This document shows positions 27,892-33,488 of a stretch of DNA of 64,000 nucleotides, one piece after another. The translations under genes and the position numbers were made by a program. Each line of letters opens with the position of its first letter. The first letter of the stretch is position 1. Under the pieces are notes generated by a model. That model did no database searches. It was not told the DNA's origin and saw nothing but the letters and a program-made list of their open reading frames with translations. This DNA is from Fluviicola chungangensis (lineage in GTDB: Bacteria; Bacteroidota; Bacteroidia; Flavobacteriales_D; Crocinitomicaceae), in contig NZ_VLPL01000001.1 of assembly GCF_007558725.1 (NCBI RefSeq), forward strand, positions 1,984 to 65,983, read 5' to 3'.

Positions 27892-28041
27892 CTATATGAA
27901 AACCGATCCTGCAATCTTTTCCCACTTAGTAGGTTCCGGAGTAACGGGTGTTGGTGTCTTTTCCTTCGTACAGGCAAAAAACATACTAACCCCAACAATC
28001 AATGTTGGGATTAGTAAATGATATTTTTGAATGAAACTCAT
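27892..28041 (-). pseudogene. Truncated fourth copy of the tandem lipoprotein
   Basis: Reading the minus strand from ATG 28041 gives 49 codons that match the first ~45 residues of the three intact neighbours: MSFIQKYHLLIPT, then the lipobox ending FFACTKEK, then TPTPVTPEPTKWEKIAG. After that the sequence leaves the family and ends SVFI-stop at 27892. The distance to the previous copy's stop is 9 bp, identical to the spacing inside the array, so this is the broken last repeat of a tandem duplication. It could still give a short lipopeptide. Confidence 0.85.
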
Positions 28042-28050
28042 TTTCTCAAA

Positions 28051-28551
28051 TCAATGCTGTTTCACCGCTATCTGTTTACAATCACAAGCGTAATAAGGTG
28101 TTACATCCGAGATATAATAATTTATATTAGTCTTGTTAAAACGAAGTTTAATTGTATCGTTATTCCAATTATTATAATAATCAGATATCCCAGCACTCAA
28201 TTTCCATCTTTTATTATTTGAATCATACAAAGGATCCCCCCCCCCAATTCTTATATACATAGGGATTGAACTAAAATCTACTTGAAGAGCTATAAACGTA
28301 AAATTGTTATCAAAATTTTCAAATCGAATAGAGTCTTCATTAGTAGCATCATTATGAATATGTACTAAATCCATATCATATAAATAAACACCTGTGGTGT
28401 CATAAACTTTGTAATGTCCTGCGATTTTTTCCCATTTCGTTGGCTCCGGTGTAACCGGTGTCGGTGTTTTTTCCTTCGAACAGGCAAAAAACATACTAAC
28501 CCCGACAATGAATGTCGGGATTAGTAAATGATATTTTTGAATGAAACTCAT
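28051..28551 (-). CDS. Tandem surface lipoprotein, copy 3, with an in-frame run of ten G
   Basis: A 166-residue SPII lipoprotein (signal ending VGVSMFFA-C). No known domain. The N-terminal ~62 residues (TPTPVTPEPTKWEKIAGHYK ... GVYLYDMDL) and the C-terminal ~25 (TNINYYISD ... CDCKQIAVKQH) are almost identical to the two upstream copies. The middle (about 63-135) differs strongly. Codons for IGGGD contain ten consecutive G on the coding strand (28236-28245); copies 1 and 2 lack this run. Loss or gain of one G would shift the frame. The last residues include a conserved CxC pair. It follows copy 2 by 9 bp. Confidence 0.8.
   Translation of the reverse strand: MSFIQKYHLLIPTFIVGVSMFFACSKEKTPTPVTPEPTKWEKIAGHYKVYDTTGVYLYDMDLVHIHNDATNEDSIRFENFDNNFTFIALQVDFSSIPMYIRIGGGDPLYDSNNKRWKLSAGISDYYNNWNNDTIKLRFNKTNINYYISDVTPYYACDCKQIAVKQH
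28236..28245 (-). repeat. Homopolymer of ten G inside a lipoprotein reading frame
   Basis: The plus strand shows ten C in a row at 28236-28245, which read as three GGG glycine codons plus the first base of the GAT (Asp) codon in the 28051-28551 gene. Such tracts are known slippage sites for phase variation in other bacteria. The frame is ON in this sequence. Confidence 0.9.
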
Positions 28552-28560
28552 TTTCTCAAA

Positions 28561-29064
28561 TCAATGCTGTTTTACCGCTATCTGCTTGCAATTACACGCA
28601 TAATAAGCAGTTAAATCAGAAATATAATAATTGATGTTTGTTTTCTGAAAATTTAAATGAATGGTGTCATTTCTGAAATTATTGTATTCTTCAGATATAC
28701 CTGCACTCAATTTCCACCTCTTAGAATTCGAATCATAAAGGGTATCATGTCCACCAATTGATACACACATTGGGAAATTCATAGGACTAGGATATAATTG
28801 CTTAACAGTAAAAGTAAATTCGGAATCAAAATTTTCAAATCTCAAAGAATCAATTTGCTCACTTACATGAATATGTATTAAATCCATGTCGTATAAATAC
28901 ACCCCCGTTGTGTCATACACCTTATAATGTCCTGCAATTTTTTCCCACTTAGTAGGTTCAGGGGTAACGGGCGTTGGTGTCTTTTCCTTGGTACAGGAAA
29001 AAAATAGACTAACCCCGACAATGAATGCCGGGATTAGTAATTGGTATCTTTTAATGAAACCCAT
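28561..29064 (-). CDS. Tandem surface lipoprotein, copy 2
   Basis: A 167-residue lipoprotein (signal ending SLFFS-C). It shares the TPTPVTPEPTKWEKIAGHYK block and the GVYLYDMDLIHIH segment with its neighbours, then a divergent core (VSEQIDSLRFENFDSEFTF ... LYPSPMNFPMCVSIGGHDTL), then the shared LYDSNSKRWKLSAGIS and TNINYYISDLTAYYAC blocks. The final CxC pair is in CNCKQIAVKQH. No domain recognised. It lies 9 bp from both neighbouring copies. Beta-rich; likely anchored in the outer membrane facing outside, since Lys/Glu follow the lipid Cys (inference). Confidence 0.78.
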   Translation of the reverse strand: MGFIKRYQLLIPAFIVGVSLFFSCTKEKTPTPVTPEPTKWEKIAGHYKVYDTTGVYLYDMDLIHIHVSEQIDSLRFENFDSEFTFTVKQLYPSPMNFPMCVSIGGHDTLYDSNSKRWKLSAGISEEYNNFRNDTIHLNFQKTNINYYISDLTAYYACNCKQIAVKQH

Positions 29065-29073
29065 CTTTCAGAA

Positions 29074-29574
29074 TTAATGCTGTTTCACAGCAATCTGCTT
29101 ACAATCACATGCATAATAAGGCGTAAGATCCGAAATGTAGTAATTGATGTTGGTTTTATCAAAACGGAGATTTATGGTGTCATTACTATAATTATTATAA
29201 TCTAAATAACTTGGGCCAAATATTCTCCACCTCTTAGAATTCGAATCATAAAGAAGATTATGTACTCCAATTGCAATATTCATTGGTGCGTTGGAAGTCT
29301 CTTCTTGTTGAGTAGTAAAAGTAAATTCTCCATCAAAATTTTCGAATCGGATCGAATCTCTATTTGTTGCATTATTATGACTATGAATCAAATCCATGTC
29401 GTACAAATACACCCCCGTTGTGTCGTACACCTTGTAATGTCCTGCAATTTTTTCCCACTTAGTTGGTTCCGGTGTGACGGGAGTCGGCGTTTTTTCCTTT
29501 GTACAGGCAAAAAACATACTAACCCCGACAATGAATGCCGGGATTAGTAATTGGTATCTTTTAATGAAACCCAT
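29074..29574 (-). CDS. Tandem surface lipoprotein, copy 1
   Basis: A 166-residue lipoprotein (signal ending SMFFA-C, then TKEKTPTPVTPEPTKWEK). It starts 2 bp after the stop of the T9SS surface protein at 29577, so it is the third gene of the operon begun at 33190. Conserved outer blocks as in copies 2 and 3; the core reads HNNATNRDSIRFENFDGEF then QQEETSNAPMNIAIGVHNLL, and the block after it (KRWRIFGPSYLDYNNY) departs from the KLSAGIS of the others. No known domain. Confidence 0.8.
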   Translation of the reverse strand: MGFIKRYQLLIPAFIVGVSMFFACTKEKTPTPVTPEPTKWEKIAGHYKVYDTTGVYLYDMDLIHSHNNATNRDSIRFENFDGEFTFTTQQEETSNAPMNIAIGVHNLLYDSNSKRWRIFGPSYLDYNNYSNDTINLRFDKTNINYYISDLTPYYACDCKQIAVKQH

Positions 29575-29576
29575 CT

Positions 29577-32024
29577 TTACATTTTTACTACCTTCCGAAC
29601 AGCATAAGTTGTTCCGGAATATATACGAATATAATACGTTCCCTTGGAATAATTTGTTAAAGAAAAGCTTAAATTCTCCGCTTTCTCTTTGTGTGAGAGC
29701 ATAACGCCTTTATCGTCGAATATCTGATAATACACGTCATCTGATCCAGTACCTGAAATCTTTACTAAATCAGTTGTCGGATTTGGGGATAAACTTAGCT
29801 CTTTATCAAAACGTTCATGTTCGGCAATAGACTCCTCCAACTGCCTTTGCTGTTCAGGTCCTAGAGGTGAATCTGAAAGTGTTGCTTCGGCTTGTTGTGT
29901 TCCTCCGGGTGCTTGCACCATTCCATTACTTCCAAATACCTCAATAAATCCATGCATAGTTACTTCCTGACCGTTACAGCCGTAGAGGGTAAGAACGTAG
30001 GTATAAACTCCTGAATTTGGTCTAACATTGTTGCCCCACATGTTTTCAGTGTAGCCATCCCACCATATCGAAGAATGAGCAATCGGGTTTTCCGGTGCTG
30101 GGGATTCAAAAGAACAACAAGCACTTCCTATTTGTCCCGTAGACCCAATATTATTCATTAAATTTTGATGATTATCGACGATTTCAAAACTATATCCTTT
30201 TGCATTAAAGGCACAAAAAGGATGATAAGTATCTGTTACCTGAATGAAATCATTTGTTGGGTCTTCATCGCCAAAATTCATAAAAAACGGGTTGGGTAAT
30301 TCATCATAGGTAAATCCAGCCCAATCGGAACAACAGTCTTCGCAATCGGTTATACACGTTGTCGGTTCAATAATACCTTCATAACCTGGTCCAGCATCCC
30401 AAAAAGTACCGTAATCAAGAGTTTTTCCTGCAATGAAGGTTACATTCGCATCTCCGGTAGAAACAACCTGAGTGAAACCTGATTGTATGCATTTCCCGGC
30501 TTTTGTTTCTGCCGGAAGTGGCGTTCCGCTTGGGGTTCTGTTCTCATAACTGATACAAACAGGACATTGATCACAAACCACGATAATTCGAAACTTGAAA
30601 ATACTGGTATCAGGATCGCAAGCATTGTTATCAAATGCCGTAATTTGATAGTAATATTCACCAACGGAGGTCCCTAATGAAGTCATCCAACTAAAAGAAA
30701 ATACTCCTCCAGATGAACCAGGGGGAATAGTAATAAATCCCGGTGGAATATTGGTGTTTGGTATAAGATCAATCTCTTCATTTGGATGATCATTAGACAA
30801 CAATGAATTAAAAAAAACAGCGTCTCCCTGGCTTACATAATAGGTATATTCTCCTGTCCCATTAATTCCATCCATCCATGGTGCTATATTATTTTGTGAA
30901 TTGACATTCAAAGTCAACGTTTCCGTATGCGTGCATCCTTCCGGAGTGGTCACTGTAACTGAATAAGTTGCATTTCCTACGGTTGGCGTTACTGTGAGTG
31001 TTTTCAATCCAACACCGGAACTTAATGTATCATTCGTCTGAGTCCAAGTGTAAACCCATCCATTGTCTCCTGTGACTTGCAGATCAACTGGAAAATTCTC
31101 ACAGACGGGGTTGCCGTCAAAGATGAAATCTATGTCAGGGTCTGCAATACAAAACTCTACCGTAGCGACATCCTTACAGACACCATAGACTGTTAGTTCT
31201 GCCCTGTAACAACTCCCCGGAATTGGAAATTGTAACGTGGGAGTTAAAGTGCCTGCCGTGCCTTGGATTATTCCAGAACTATAAAAAAGTTGGTTTCCAG
31301 TAGTTGTATTATAAATGTTCCATTCGTAAGAAGTTTCATTTGCTGAAGCCGTTCCGTCCAAAGTCACTTGTTCACCGAAACAAAGTACTGGTTCGGAAGC
31401 ACTTAGACTCGCTTGAGCAAGTGGAGTGGTTGGAGGAATAGTCATAACGCTAACACTATCTACCAAATAAACAATAGTTTCGGGAGCTGCTCCTCCAAAC
31501 GGACCAATTGTCACATAATGTGTTACACTGTTCTGAGCGGTAAAACAGGCTTTTAGCTTTACACATTGTGTACTGGTTATAACTTCTGAAATTAATGGTG
31601 TAGTTGAAGTTATAGCAGGAGTTGGAACCGTTTCAGTAATTGCTAAACCTACTCTCCTCAACGATTCTGTTGTGTAATCTTTTTTGATCCAAAAAGATAC
31701 TTCATAAATCTGTCCGGCAGTTAAAGGCAGCGTTGTACCGTACAAATACTCTATGTAACCAGTACTATTAAGACCGAACCGACCACATCCCGCACCAAAA
31801 CAAGAGCTTCCGGTAACCGAATTCGGAACGCAAGGGTTAATCAAATCGCATGTGCCAATAAGATTGTGCCAGTATGCTCCATATTCGATATTATAAGCAT
31901 CAACGGTTCCCGACGGTGCAACTCCATCGCATTCTTCAAAGCTCCCGTTCAGCATCATATCCTGTGCGTTTGCATTTGCTGTTATCCCTAACAACAAAAG
32001 GACTAAGAATAAATACTTACTCAT
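29577..32024 (-). CDS. Large secreted protein with Ig/PKD-like repeats and T9SS type A sorting domain
   Basis: An 815-residue protein with signal peptide 1-20 (ending NANAQ). Residues about 22-195 resemble a carbohydrate-binding-like jelly roll starting with MMLNGSFEECDG and containing LPLTAGQIYEVSFWIKKDY. Ig/PKD-like segments follow (ASLSASEPVLCFGEQVTLDG; YSVTVTTPEGCTHTETLTL), then a Cys-rich section (DQCPVC, TDCEDCCSDWAG). An acidic/Gln-rich linker leads to the sorting domain (LSLSPNPTTDLVKISGTG ... YSKGTYYIRIYSG). Start and upstream stop share one base (TAATG). A surface-exposed binding protein is likely. The DNA is visibly more A+T-rich than the flanks. Confidence 0.85.
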   Translation of the reverse strand: MSKYLFLVLLLLGITANANAQDMMLNGSFEECDGVAPSGTVDAYNIEYGAYWHNLIGTCDLINPCVPNSVTGSSCFGAGCGRFGLNSTGYIEYLYGTTLPLTAGQIYEVSFWIKKDYTTESLRRVGLAITETVPTPAITSTTPLISEVITSTQCVKLKACFTAQNSVTHYVTIGPFGGAAPETIVYLVDSVSVMTIPPTTPLAQASLSASEPVLCFGEQVTLDGTASANETSYEWNIYNTTTGNQLFYSSGIIQGTAGTLTPTLQFPIPGSCYRAELTVYGVCKDVATVEFCIADPDIDFIFDGNPVCENFPVDLQVTGDNGWVYTWTQTNDTLSSGVGLKTLTVTPTVGNATYSVTVTTPEGCTHTETLTLNVNSQNNIAPWMDGINGTGEYTYYVSQGDAVFFNSLLSNDHPNEEIDLIPNTNIPPGFITIPPGSSGGVFSFSWMTSLGTSVGEYYYQITAFDNNACDPDTSIFKFRIIVVCDQCPVCISYENRTPSGTPLPAETKAGKCIQSGFTQVVSTGDANVTFIAGKTLDYGTFWDAGPGYEGIIEPTTCITDCEDCCSDWAGFTYDELPNPFFMNFGDEDPTNDFIQVTDTYHPFCAFNAKGYSFEIVDNHQNLMNNIGSTGQIGSACCSFESPAPENPIAHSSIWWDGYTENMWGNNVRPNSGVYTYVLTLYGCNGQEVTMHGFIEVFGSNGMVQAPGGTQQAEATLSDSPLGPEQQRQLEESIAEHERFDKELSLSPNPTTDLVKISGTGSDDVYYQIFDDKGVMLSHKEKAENLSFSLTNYSKGTYYIRIYSGTTYAVRKVVKM

Positions 32025-33190
32025 TAGTTCTGTGTTTTTTCCAATTCAGCCAATTTCGCCTGCAATACTTCTACCTGCTGCTTCAATACTTCGGTATTCT
32101 TGTTTTGCTGGATCAGGTACAAAGTCAGTTCTTCTACTTTTTCCATTAGAATCTTGTTCATTTCCATAACGTCTGCACCGTCAACTTTCAATTCTTGTTC
32201 AGATGGTACGTTAGGCAAGTGTTTTTCTTTCTTTACAAACGATTCTACTTCGCTTAAAGGCATCAAGTGATAAGTCGGTTCAAACACATAATCCGCCCAC
32301 GTATCCAAATCCAGTTTCATTCTGCGTCCGCGAATCAATCCGGTTGTTTCAACTTTGAAAGTTTGCAATGAACCACTTCTAAGTTCCAATGAACCTTCTG
32401 TACCCAAATGGAAAATCGTTGTTGTTCCGTTGTCTATATCCATTGCTCCATTAGCTTGTAATAGAAATGGAGTTCTACTAGTCGCAGTATTGACAACTTC
32501 CATAATTTTAGTATCGGCATTATCGTATTCAAAATACATCAAACGCTGGTAAGGCTTGGTATTTCCCACTGTATTTGACTGAATTGCAGCAGTTCTGTTT
32601 GTATTGACAATACTCAATTTGGAAAAGGTATTCAGATCAGAACCGATGGAAATGGAACCTTGAGCCCATAAATTGGAACTTACCTTCGCTTCACCTACAA
32701 CATCAAGCTGCCTGGTTGGTGTGGAAGTCCCGATTCCGACAAGGACTTGCGGGCATTCACTGAACAATTTGTTCGGTCCGTTTGCCCAAGTCGGACTTGT
32801 AACGGTACCTCCGGCCAAATCACAATTCCGGGAATAGATTATGTCTCTTAAAGTTCCGACAGCAAGTTTTTTAGTGATTCCATTTTCACCACTAGCGAGA
32901 ATTGTTTCGCCGTTAAGCCCATCCAATTGAGCAATATTAGGTAGGTATAAGTCTCCTTCGACTTTTAAATCTTCTCCAACAAGTGCGTTGGATGCCATGA
33001 CTACCGAATCATTCACAGTAAGTGTAGAATCAATACGTGTTGAACCCGCGACAGTCAAACGTGCAGTTGGTGCAGTTGAACCTGTTCCTAATCCAACATT
33101 TCCATTTTCTGAAATGGTGTTTTCTTGCGCAAAGAATTGTCCTGAAATAAATAAAGCTGATACTGACAGCAAATAAGTGATTTTTTTCAT
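32024..33190 (-). CDS. Secreted tail-fibre-like protein with C-terminal coiled coil
   Basis: A 388-residue protein with signal peptide 1-21 (ending GQFFAQ). Two copies of the motif VGLGTGSTAPTARLTVAG / VGIGTSTPTRQLDVVGEA, typical of trimeric fibre-like secreted proteins of Bacteroidota, flank a beta-rich middle. Near the end comes WADYVFEPTYHLMPLSEVE ... KEKHLPNVPSEQEL, a conserved segment resembling the pre-cleavage region of intramolecular chaperone (S74-type) tails, then a heptad-like helix (VLKQQVEVLQAKLAELEK). It heads the surface operon that includes the tandem lipoproteins. No phage genes surround it, so it is a cellular surface fibre. Confidence 0.8.
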   Translation of the reverse strand: MKKITYLLSVSALFISGQFFAQENTISENGNVGLGTGSTAPTARLTVAGSTRIDSTLTVNDSVVMASNALVGEDLKVEGDLYLPNIAQLDGLNGETILASGENGITKKLAVGTLRDIIYSRNCDLAGGTVTSPTWANGPNKLFSECPQVLVGIGTSTPTRQLDVVGEAKVSSNLWAQGSISIGSDLNTFSKLSIVNTNRTAAIQSNTVGNTKPYQRLMYFEYDNADTKIMEVVNTATSRTPFLLQANGAMDIDNGTTTIFHLGTEGSLELRSGSLQTFKVETTGLIRGRRMKLDLDTWADYVFEPTYHLMPLSEVESFVKKEKHLPNVPSEQELKVDGADVMEMNKILMEKVEELTLYLIQQNKNTEVLKQQVEVLQAKLAELEKTQN

Positions 33191-33488
33191 AAGTTTTTGT
33201 TTTTTAGAATGCCGATATTAGTATAATACAAAGACATTTTCGGCTTGAATGTCAACGCATGATTTAAGTTTTTAAAAAATGGGAAAAAGATTCTAGGTGC
33301 TGTTCAATGTTGAATTTCGAAGCATATCAGTGAATAATTTGTTTTGTGGATATTAAATGACTTATTTCAGATTCGTTACAAAAGTAGTCTGCACGATAGT
33401 AATCTATTTACGTTCTGTCTGTAAGCGAAAAAATAATATAGAAGGCATTTTAAATCGTGTTAAGCAGTTAAGTTCTTTGCGGTTATTA

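Follow-up and report, generated by a model that had tools for sequence, protein, structure and literature searches.

What might a row of lipoproteins with alike ends and differing cores be doing directly behind a secreted protein? The question is raised by an operon of Fluviicola chungangensis, which lies in a stretch of 64,000 nucleotides (positions 1,984 to 65,983 of contig NZ_VLPL01000001.1) referred to here as the window. In this operon a gene for a fibre-like secreted protein is followed by one for a type A substrate of the type 9 secretion system (T9SS), by three genes for lipoproteins of 166–167 residues and by a broken fourth, all on the minus strand and with intergenic gaps of −1, 2, 9, 9 and 9 bp; this layout, given in a preliminary description of the locus, was borne out by the gene coordinates and sorting-domain scores. 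The explanation favored here, to which we attach a probability of roughly 0.42, is that these genes form a conserved module in which the T9SS protein has a row of cognate lipoprotein partners, with every lipoprotein gene start doubling as the terminator of the gene upstream. The features of the operon are as follows.

33191..33488, minus strand: module upstream region, of which about 290 nt nearest the fibre gene are common to a paralogous operon of the same genome
32024..33190, minus strand: gene for the 388-aa fibre-like secreted protein, which opens the module
29577..32024, minus strand: T9SS type A protein, 815 aa, sorting domain at residues 747–813
29074..29574, minus strand: lipoprotein copy 1, 166 aa
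29152..29388, minus strand: variable core of copy 1, residues 63–141
28561..29064, minus strand: lipoprotein copy 2, 167 aa
28051..28551, minus strand: lipoprotein copy 3, 166 aa
27892..28041, minus strand: 5′ fragment of a fourth lipoprotein copy, about 46 matching codons with a stop at 27892, hairpin retained

Composition and distribution of the module

The T9SS protein scored 32.9 bits against TIGR04183 (cut-off 23), as expected of a type A substrate, and 35.2 bits against Pfam PF18962 (cut-off 27). It shares this C-terminal sorting domain with other T9SS type A substrates of Bacteroidota, from which it differs in that no other domain exceeded its cut-off (a PKD-like domain scored below) and in its coupling to fibre and lipoprotein genes. 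The fibre-like protein, with homologues in 13 of the 14 Fluviicola genomes, ends in a coiled-coil-like motif (judged by eye) and matched a tail fibre in PHROG (E 1.4e-5). This match was the only sign of a phage or defence origin, which was rejected: the five operon proteins had no PADLOC match and the lipoprotein had no relatives in viral contigs.

Lipoprotein copies 2 and 3 shared 77% and 75% identity, respectively, with copy 1, above chance. The near-identical ends and differing core reported in the preliminary description were confirmed, with 54 of 62 columns identical among the three window copies over residues 1–62, 38 of 81 over residues 63–141 and 22 of 25 over residues 142–166. All 14 full Fluviicola copies showed, by pattern match, a cysteine after a hydrophobic stretch, the lipobox rule by which they were assigned as lipoproteins. 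No named domain was found for the family in Pfam (21 members) or NCBIfam, DUF576 not being among the Pfam matches of these members at E ≤ 1, and a comparison with PDB sequences gave nothing credible. DUF4369, matched in three members with a best E of 0.039, was rejected, having scored below the cut-off in the one checked.

Genomes are designated here by G numbers (G000 for the window's own, one genome per species for the others compared). Lipoprotein homologues were detected at E ≤ 0.01 in 11 of 119 relatives and, across the order, in 32 of 399 genomes, the own genome included in both; 14 of the 32 were strong (E below 1e-30). The remaining 18, weak matches with E between 2e-4 and 0.01, did not enter the counts, and neither did G033 (E 3e-12, with internal stops). 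Extension to the class (8 of 395 genomes at 1e-6) added six, giving 20 genomes with a strong homologue. The order of fibre-like protein, secreted protein and lipoprotein was found in nine of these (G000, G007, G002, G009, G073, G358, G755, G534 and G779), the G009 module being spread over two contigs. G243 and G467 showed the secreted protein and the lipoprotein, the fibre position lying outside the view; G013 and G546 had a T9SS-like gene, the parts being separated by an additional gene, and the G006 locus was interrupted by contig ends. The secreted proteins of nine other genomes all matched the window T9SS protein (one-pass blastp, weakest E 1e-32), those of G358, G073, G755, G534 and G779 lying outside the sorting-domain scan. 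Five fibre-like proteins of other genera matched that of the window, four of them over only about 90–140 C-terminal residues. No description of such a fibre, secreted protein and lipoprotein module was found among the literature titles listed.

The lipoprotein was carried by 7 of the 14 Fluviicola genomes, and its copy number varied between species, from none to three plus fragments: three and a fragment in G000 and G007, three in G009, two and one with unread bases in G002, at least two and partial pieces in G006, one in G005 and one broken in G013. Among the genomes viewed, diverged tandem copies occurred only in Fluviicola, the lipoprotein being single elsewhere except in G779 (two near-identical copies). 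In three species the last element of the array was the 5′ portion of one more copy; the hairpin described below was intact in one of these portions and decayed in the other two. For the tail beyond the break of the fourth window copy, blastn and tblastn comparisons with the loci examined gave no source.

Constraint and exchange among the lipoprotein copies

The proportions of synonymous (pS) and nonsynonymous (pN) differences were calculated by segment for the window copies. Residues 25–62 (pS 0.53–0.86, pN 0.00–0.01) and 142–166 (pS 0.72–0.86, pN 0.02–0.05) were near saturation at synonymous sites with pN not above 0.05, which indicates that both ends are old and fixed by purifying selection, not by recent recombination. 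In the core, pS was similar (0.50–0.71) and only pN was higher (0.28–0.30; rough omega 0.16–0.46), so that the core appears less constrained than the ends, with no positive selection seen on average. Only the signal-peptide DNA was nearly uniform (pS 0.03–0.10, pN 0.04–0.13), perhaps in part because of the hairpin that it contains.

Exchange between copies was clear in G007, where copies 1 and 3 gave a pS of 0.00 over residues 25–62 and 0.15 at the 3′ end against 0.73 in the core, and exchanged or homogenised segments were also seen in G006 and the window. Trees of the 5′ and 3′ segments clustered by genome beyond shuffles (values as low in 3 and 4 of 200, respectively), many forks in these short trees being unsupported and the three window copies not being grouped there; the core tree did not cluster by genome (as low in 185 of 200). 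Core types instead paired across species, namely G007_1 with G002_1 (96/88), G000_3 with G009_3 (96/93) and G000_1 with G007_2 (97/96), and the nearest relatives of window copy 3 were G002_2 and G009_3, both from other species. A run-length test over 91 pairs (p values uncorrected) gave low values for several between-genome pairs too, and pS and the trees were therefore given more weight. These patterns point to long-lived core types that are assorted, with some exchange of ends, rather than to fast diversification.

The preliminary description had proposed that recombination diversifies an exposed surface, as for phage-receptor escape, predator avoidance or kin recognition. The exchanged segments, the variable core and the variation in copy number between species are in keeping with this, and the part of the proposal that concerns exchange between copies stands. 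However, the ends of the window copies are old and under purifying selection, rough omega is below 1 in the core and core types are common to several species. No silent lipoprotein copies were found elsewhere in the own genome, where a search at E ≤ 1 gave five matches, four at this array and a fifth (E 0.6) with internal stops. Surface exposure is not predicted either: the lipoprotein export signal (LES) C-X-K-(D/E)2, given for surface-exposed Bacteroidota lipoproteins in PMC5080379, was absent from all 14 full copies, which had at most one acidic residue at the LES position after the cysteine, although Fluviicola's own signal may differ. Since the described signal is absent, the lipoproteins may face the periplasm. 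No support was found for phage-receptor escape, predator avoidance or kin recognition, and diversification of a surface antigen is considered an improbable explanation of the array.

Hairpins in the signal-peptide codons

All four window copies, the fragment included, contain an inverted repeat within their signal-peptide codons, a feature that the preliminary description did not mention.

29517..29549, minus strand: hairpin of copy 1, 14 pairs, 27 nt past the T9SS stop
29008..29038, minus strand: hairpin of copy 2, 13 pairs, 35 nt past the copy 1 stop
28494..28526, minus strand: hairpin of copy 3, 14 pairs, 34 nt past the copy 2 stop
27984..28016, minus strand: hairpin of the fragment, 14 pairs, 34 nt past the copy 3 stop

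All four consist of a G+C-rich stem of 13–14 pairs, a 5-nt loop and a following T-rich stretch, which is the form of an intrinsic terminator, and they had the longest stems among 12 terminator-like sites in 10.2 kb. The fragment differed from the copy 3 stem by one two-sided change that kept the pair. A hairpin of 10–14 bp was found at 12 of 19 Fluviicola copy starts, the T run being weaker in the G009 and G006 copies (by eye). When 18 copies were compared with synonymous versions of themselves (G002_3 being skipped for its unread bases), the hairpin score was reached in at most 11 of 1000 draws for 11 copies, the other seven having no unusual hairpin; judged by minimum free energy, the G009_1 hairpin was not unusual among its synonymous versions (162/1000). 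On this sequence test, chance codon choice does not account for the hairpin. Across 193 open reading frame (ORF) starts in 16 stretches, the nine top hairpin scores all belonged to array lipoproteins. The T9SS genes of the same operon carried a weaker signal-peptide hairpin, with scores of 25, 22 and 21, next below the array genes. Covariation was assessed in the 12 hairpin copies, leaving aside the seven hairpin-less Fluviicola starts: 97.5% of cells were paired and 7 of 14 pairs had changed on both sides, compared with 30–50% of cells paired in slid controls. Similar palindromes elsewhere in the genus (25 sites selected from a longer list) were mostly intergenic (22/25) and lay within 8–71 nt past a stop codon in 18 of 25 cases.

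From this position and form, we infer that the array hairpins are terminators inside which the next gene starts, so that each lipoprotein gene start would be enclosed by the intrinsic-terminator-like hairpin of the preceding gene. Since the gene starts sit inside such hairpins, transcription would be expected to fall stepwise along the array. By analogy with Escherichia coli, in which ribosomes keep intrinsic terminators from forming (PMC5021804), the fall might be averted where ribosomes entering the next gene block hairpin formation. A comparable arrangement is the pil1 pilus operon, for which leader-peptide attenuation with a terminator stem-loop is described in PMC3894217. In both, translation of a coding region would decide whether the terminator stem-loop forms; unlike in pil1, the hairpin here sits in the signal-peptide codons of several tandem genes and not in one leader, and its presumed dependence on translation is drawn from its position.

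Alternatively, the hairpin could act on DNA as a recombination boundary and not on RNA as a terminator, a role that would be compatible with the other explanations. In four of the five within-genome pairs with p < 0.001 in the run-length test, the edge of the longest shared tract fell at nt 57–72, just past the hairpin, and in the comparison of G002 with G009 described below, similarity returns in the last copy just past the signal peptide. Yet the similar palindromes elsewhere are mostly single and follow stop codons, the flagging of between-genome pairs means that the tracts may end where conserved segments end, and no recombinase was seen among the window ORFs listed. A boundary function is accordingly regarded as very unlikely.

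A likely replacement of putative partners and the weighing of explanations

Co-replacement of the secreted protein and its lipoproteins was suggested by G002 and G009, which carry the module at the same locus. Their DNA shared 94–95% identity in the outer flanks, about 90% in the fibre gene and 78% in the directly downstream gene. The T9SS proteins, in contrast, were at a distance of 0.59 (over the part covered, from the longer G009 piece alone), and the first lipoproteins differed by 0.56 as compared with 0.28 for the last full-length ones. DNA similarity ended at the T9SS start and returned in the last G009 lipoprotein just past the signal peptide, with short weak matches between. It is likely from this comparison that the T9SS gene and proximal lipoproteins were replaced as a cassette while the distal lipoprotein was kept, a pattern that resembles effector-immunity displacement. 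Over 45 genome pairs, distances between T9SS proteins and between first lipoproteins were correlated (r = 0.87, phylogeny not removed). In G005, which has a single lipoprotein, the 16 nt before it resemble (by eye) the 3′ end of the T9SS gene.

Among known systems, the nearest parallel to a row of lipoproteins next to a secreted protein is TslA/TilA of staphylococci, in which the DUF576 lipoprotein TilA binds and inhibits the adjacent type 7 secretion system (T7SS) lipase TslA, as reported in PMC10730906. The two have in common tandem diverged lipoproteins (Lpl/DUF576 in staphylococci) beside a secreted protein, variable copy number and recombination between copies. The Fluviicola array differs in lacking a DUF576 match, in belonging to Bacteroidota and T9SS and in the hairpin at its gene starts; since DUF576 homology is absent, this is a resemblance and not membership. 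Sequential effector displacement in the type 6 secretion system (T6SS) effector-immunity arrays of Vibrio, as presented in PMC5361080, is similar in that a secreted protein and its adjacent partner are both replaced while the old partner persists downstream, of which one likely case is seen here. It differs from the present array in its secretion system and in that no recognised effector domain was found here, protection being suggested by analogy.

In the favored explanation, the fibre-like protein, the T9SS-exported protein and a cognate partner lipoprotein would make up a three-part module, the partner gene having multiplied in tandem in Fluviicola through duplication and through exchange of the T9SS gene along with its proximal partners, so that older partners would remain at the distal end of the array. 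The conserved lipoprotein ends may hold the fold and common contacts and the core may confer specificity. The likeliest role would be that of a protective (immunity-like) partner binding its own and related T9SS proteins, with a plain anchor or adaptor role close behind.

Several observations weigh against this explanation. Comparison of the T9SS protein with Pfam, NCBIfam and PDB sequences revealed neither a toxin nor an enzyme domain, none of the five operon proteins matched PADLOC, and two AlphaFold2 models were too poor (mean pLDDT 48.7 and 42.2) to inform on fold or binding. Six of the 20 genomes (G005, G328, G398, G296, G329 and G408) had no T9SS gene directly upstream of the lipoprotein. 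By eye, a T9SS-like gene lay downstream on the other strand in G408 and about 3 kb downstream in G296. The cassette replacement is one case, in which the G009 locus comes from a metagenome bin and is divided between two contigs, and in which G002 carries an additional distal copy containing unread bases. Simple co-divergence is also at odds with G007 and G002, whose first lipoproteins are near-alike (0.08) and whose T9SS proteins are 0.29 apart. As regards the hairpins, terminator-like sites were not in excess by number (12 compared with 8.3 in shuffles, sd 3.1) but only by stem length, and the hairpin was absent or decayed at 7 of 19 Fluviicola copy starts and absent from 7/7 single-copy homologues of other genera and 11/11 lipoproteins of paralogous arrays, so that the module as such can do without it.

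The seven Fluviicola starts with an absent or decayed hairpin would fit a plainer account, in which the lipoprotein gene was duplicated in tandem in the ordinary way, constraint on its core was relaxed and a new start codon captured a terminator by chance. The core omega values and the multiplication of small lipoproteins in paralogous operons also fit. We regard this as a rather improbable account, given that the hairpin has been kept through two-sided changes across species and against synonymous drift and that cores are kept by type between species.

In the paralogous operons the fibre family is the same, but it is paired with T9SS proteins and small lipoproteins of other kinds. One of these lipoprotein families, behind a different T9SS protein, was present in 1–7 copies in 6 of the 14 Fluviicola genomes. 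Together with the retention of gene order across families and the T9SS protein without a toxin domain, such pairings are consistent with an anchor or adaptor, in which the task of the lipoproteins would be to hold, fold or escort the fibre and the T9SS protein at the outer membrane. Additional copies would then adjust dose or serve several T9SS clients, and no toxin protection would be involved. The six genomes without a T9SS gene directly upstream count against this too, and the keeping of an older-type distal copy after replacement is not required of an anchor; the anchor or adaptor is possible but somewhat unlikely.

The operon sits at other places in other carriers. The genes flanking it in the window (identities by eye) adjoin in G001, G002 and G009, 13–79 bp apart, and are separated by one other gene in G013, G008 and G003 (by eye); in G007 and G006 the right-hand neighbor differs from that of the window (by eye). 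At loci L149, L152, L154 and L155, an NAD(P)-binding-like gene (by eye) stands beside a symporter-like gene at the position of the window operon. The sequence upstream of the fibre gene (33191–33480, some 290 nt), together with roughly the first 250 nt of that gene, was 86% identical to a paralogous operon at G000:C14 (79–96% by 100-nt window in the shared part, 43–75% in the rest of the fibre gene). The upstream region was also shared between G002 and G009 (same locus), and was not shared in three other within-genome pairs or in three of four between-genome pairs. A third fibre, T9SS and lipoprotein operon lies at a contig end (G000:C15:330000-348436), its fibre frame broken by stops.

A more specific form of the partner array, which we consider unlikely as a whole, is a self-terminating one: with the signal peptide written in a palindrome, each start would be the terminator of the preceding gene and position in the array would rank expression. 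A new T9SS gene and its partners would enter next to the promoter and older ones would sink to the distal, weakly expressed end as a record of earlier T9SS proteins. A last copy that is truncated could then persist because its start still serves as operon terminator. If the partner-array explanation is true, it would provide a T9SS-linked addition to the T7SS and T6SS arrays of secreted proteins and partner lipoproteins already known, and a clean test case of a coding sequence that doubles as an expression-ranking terminator.

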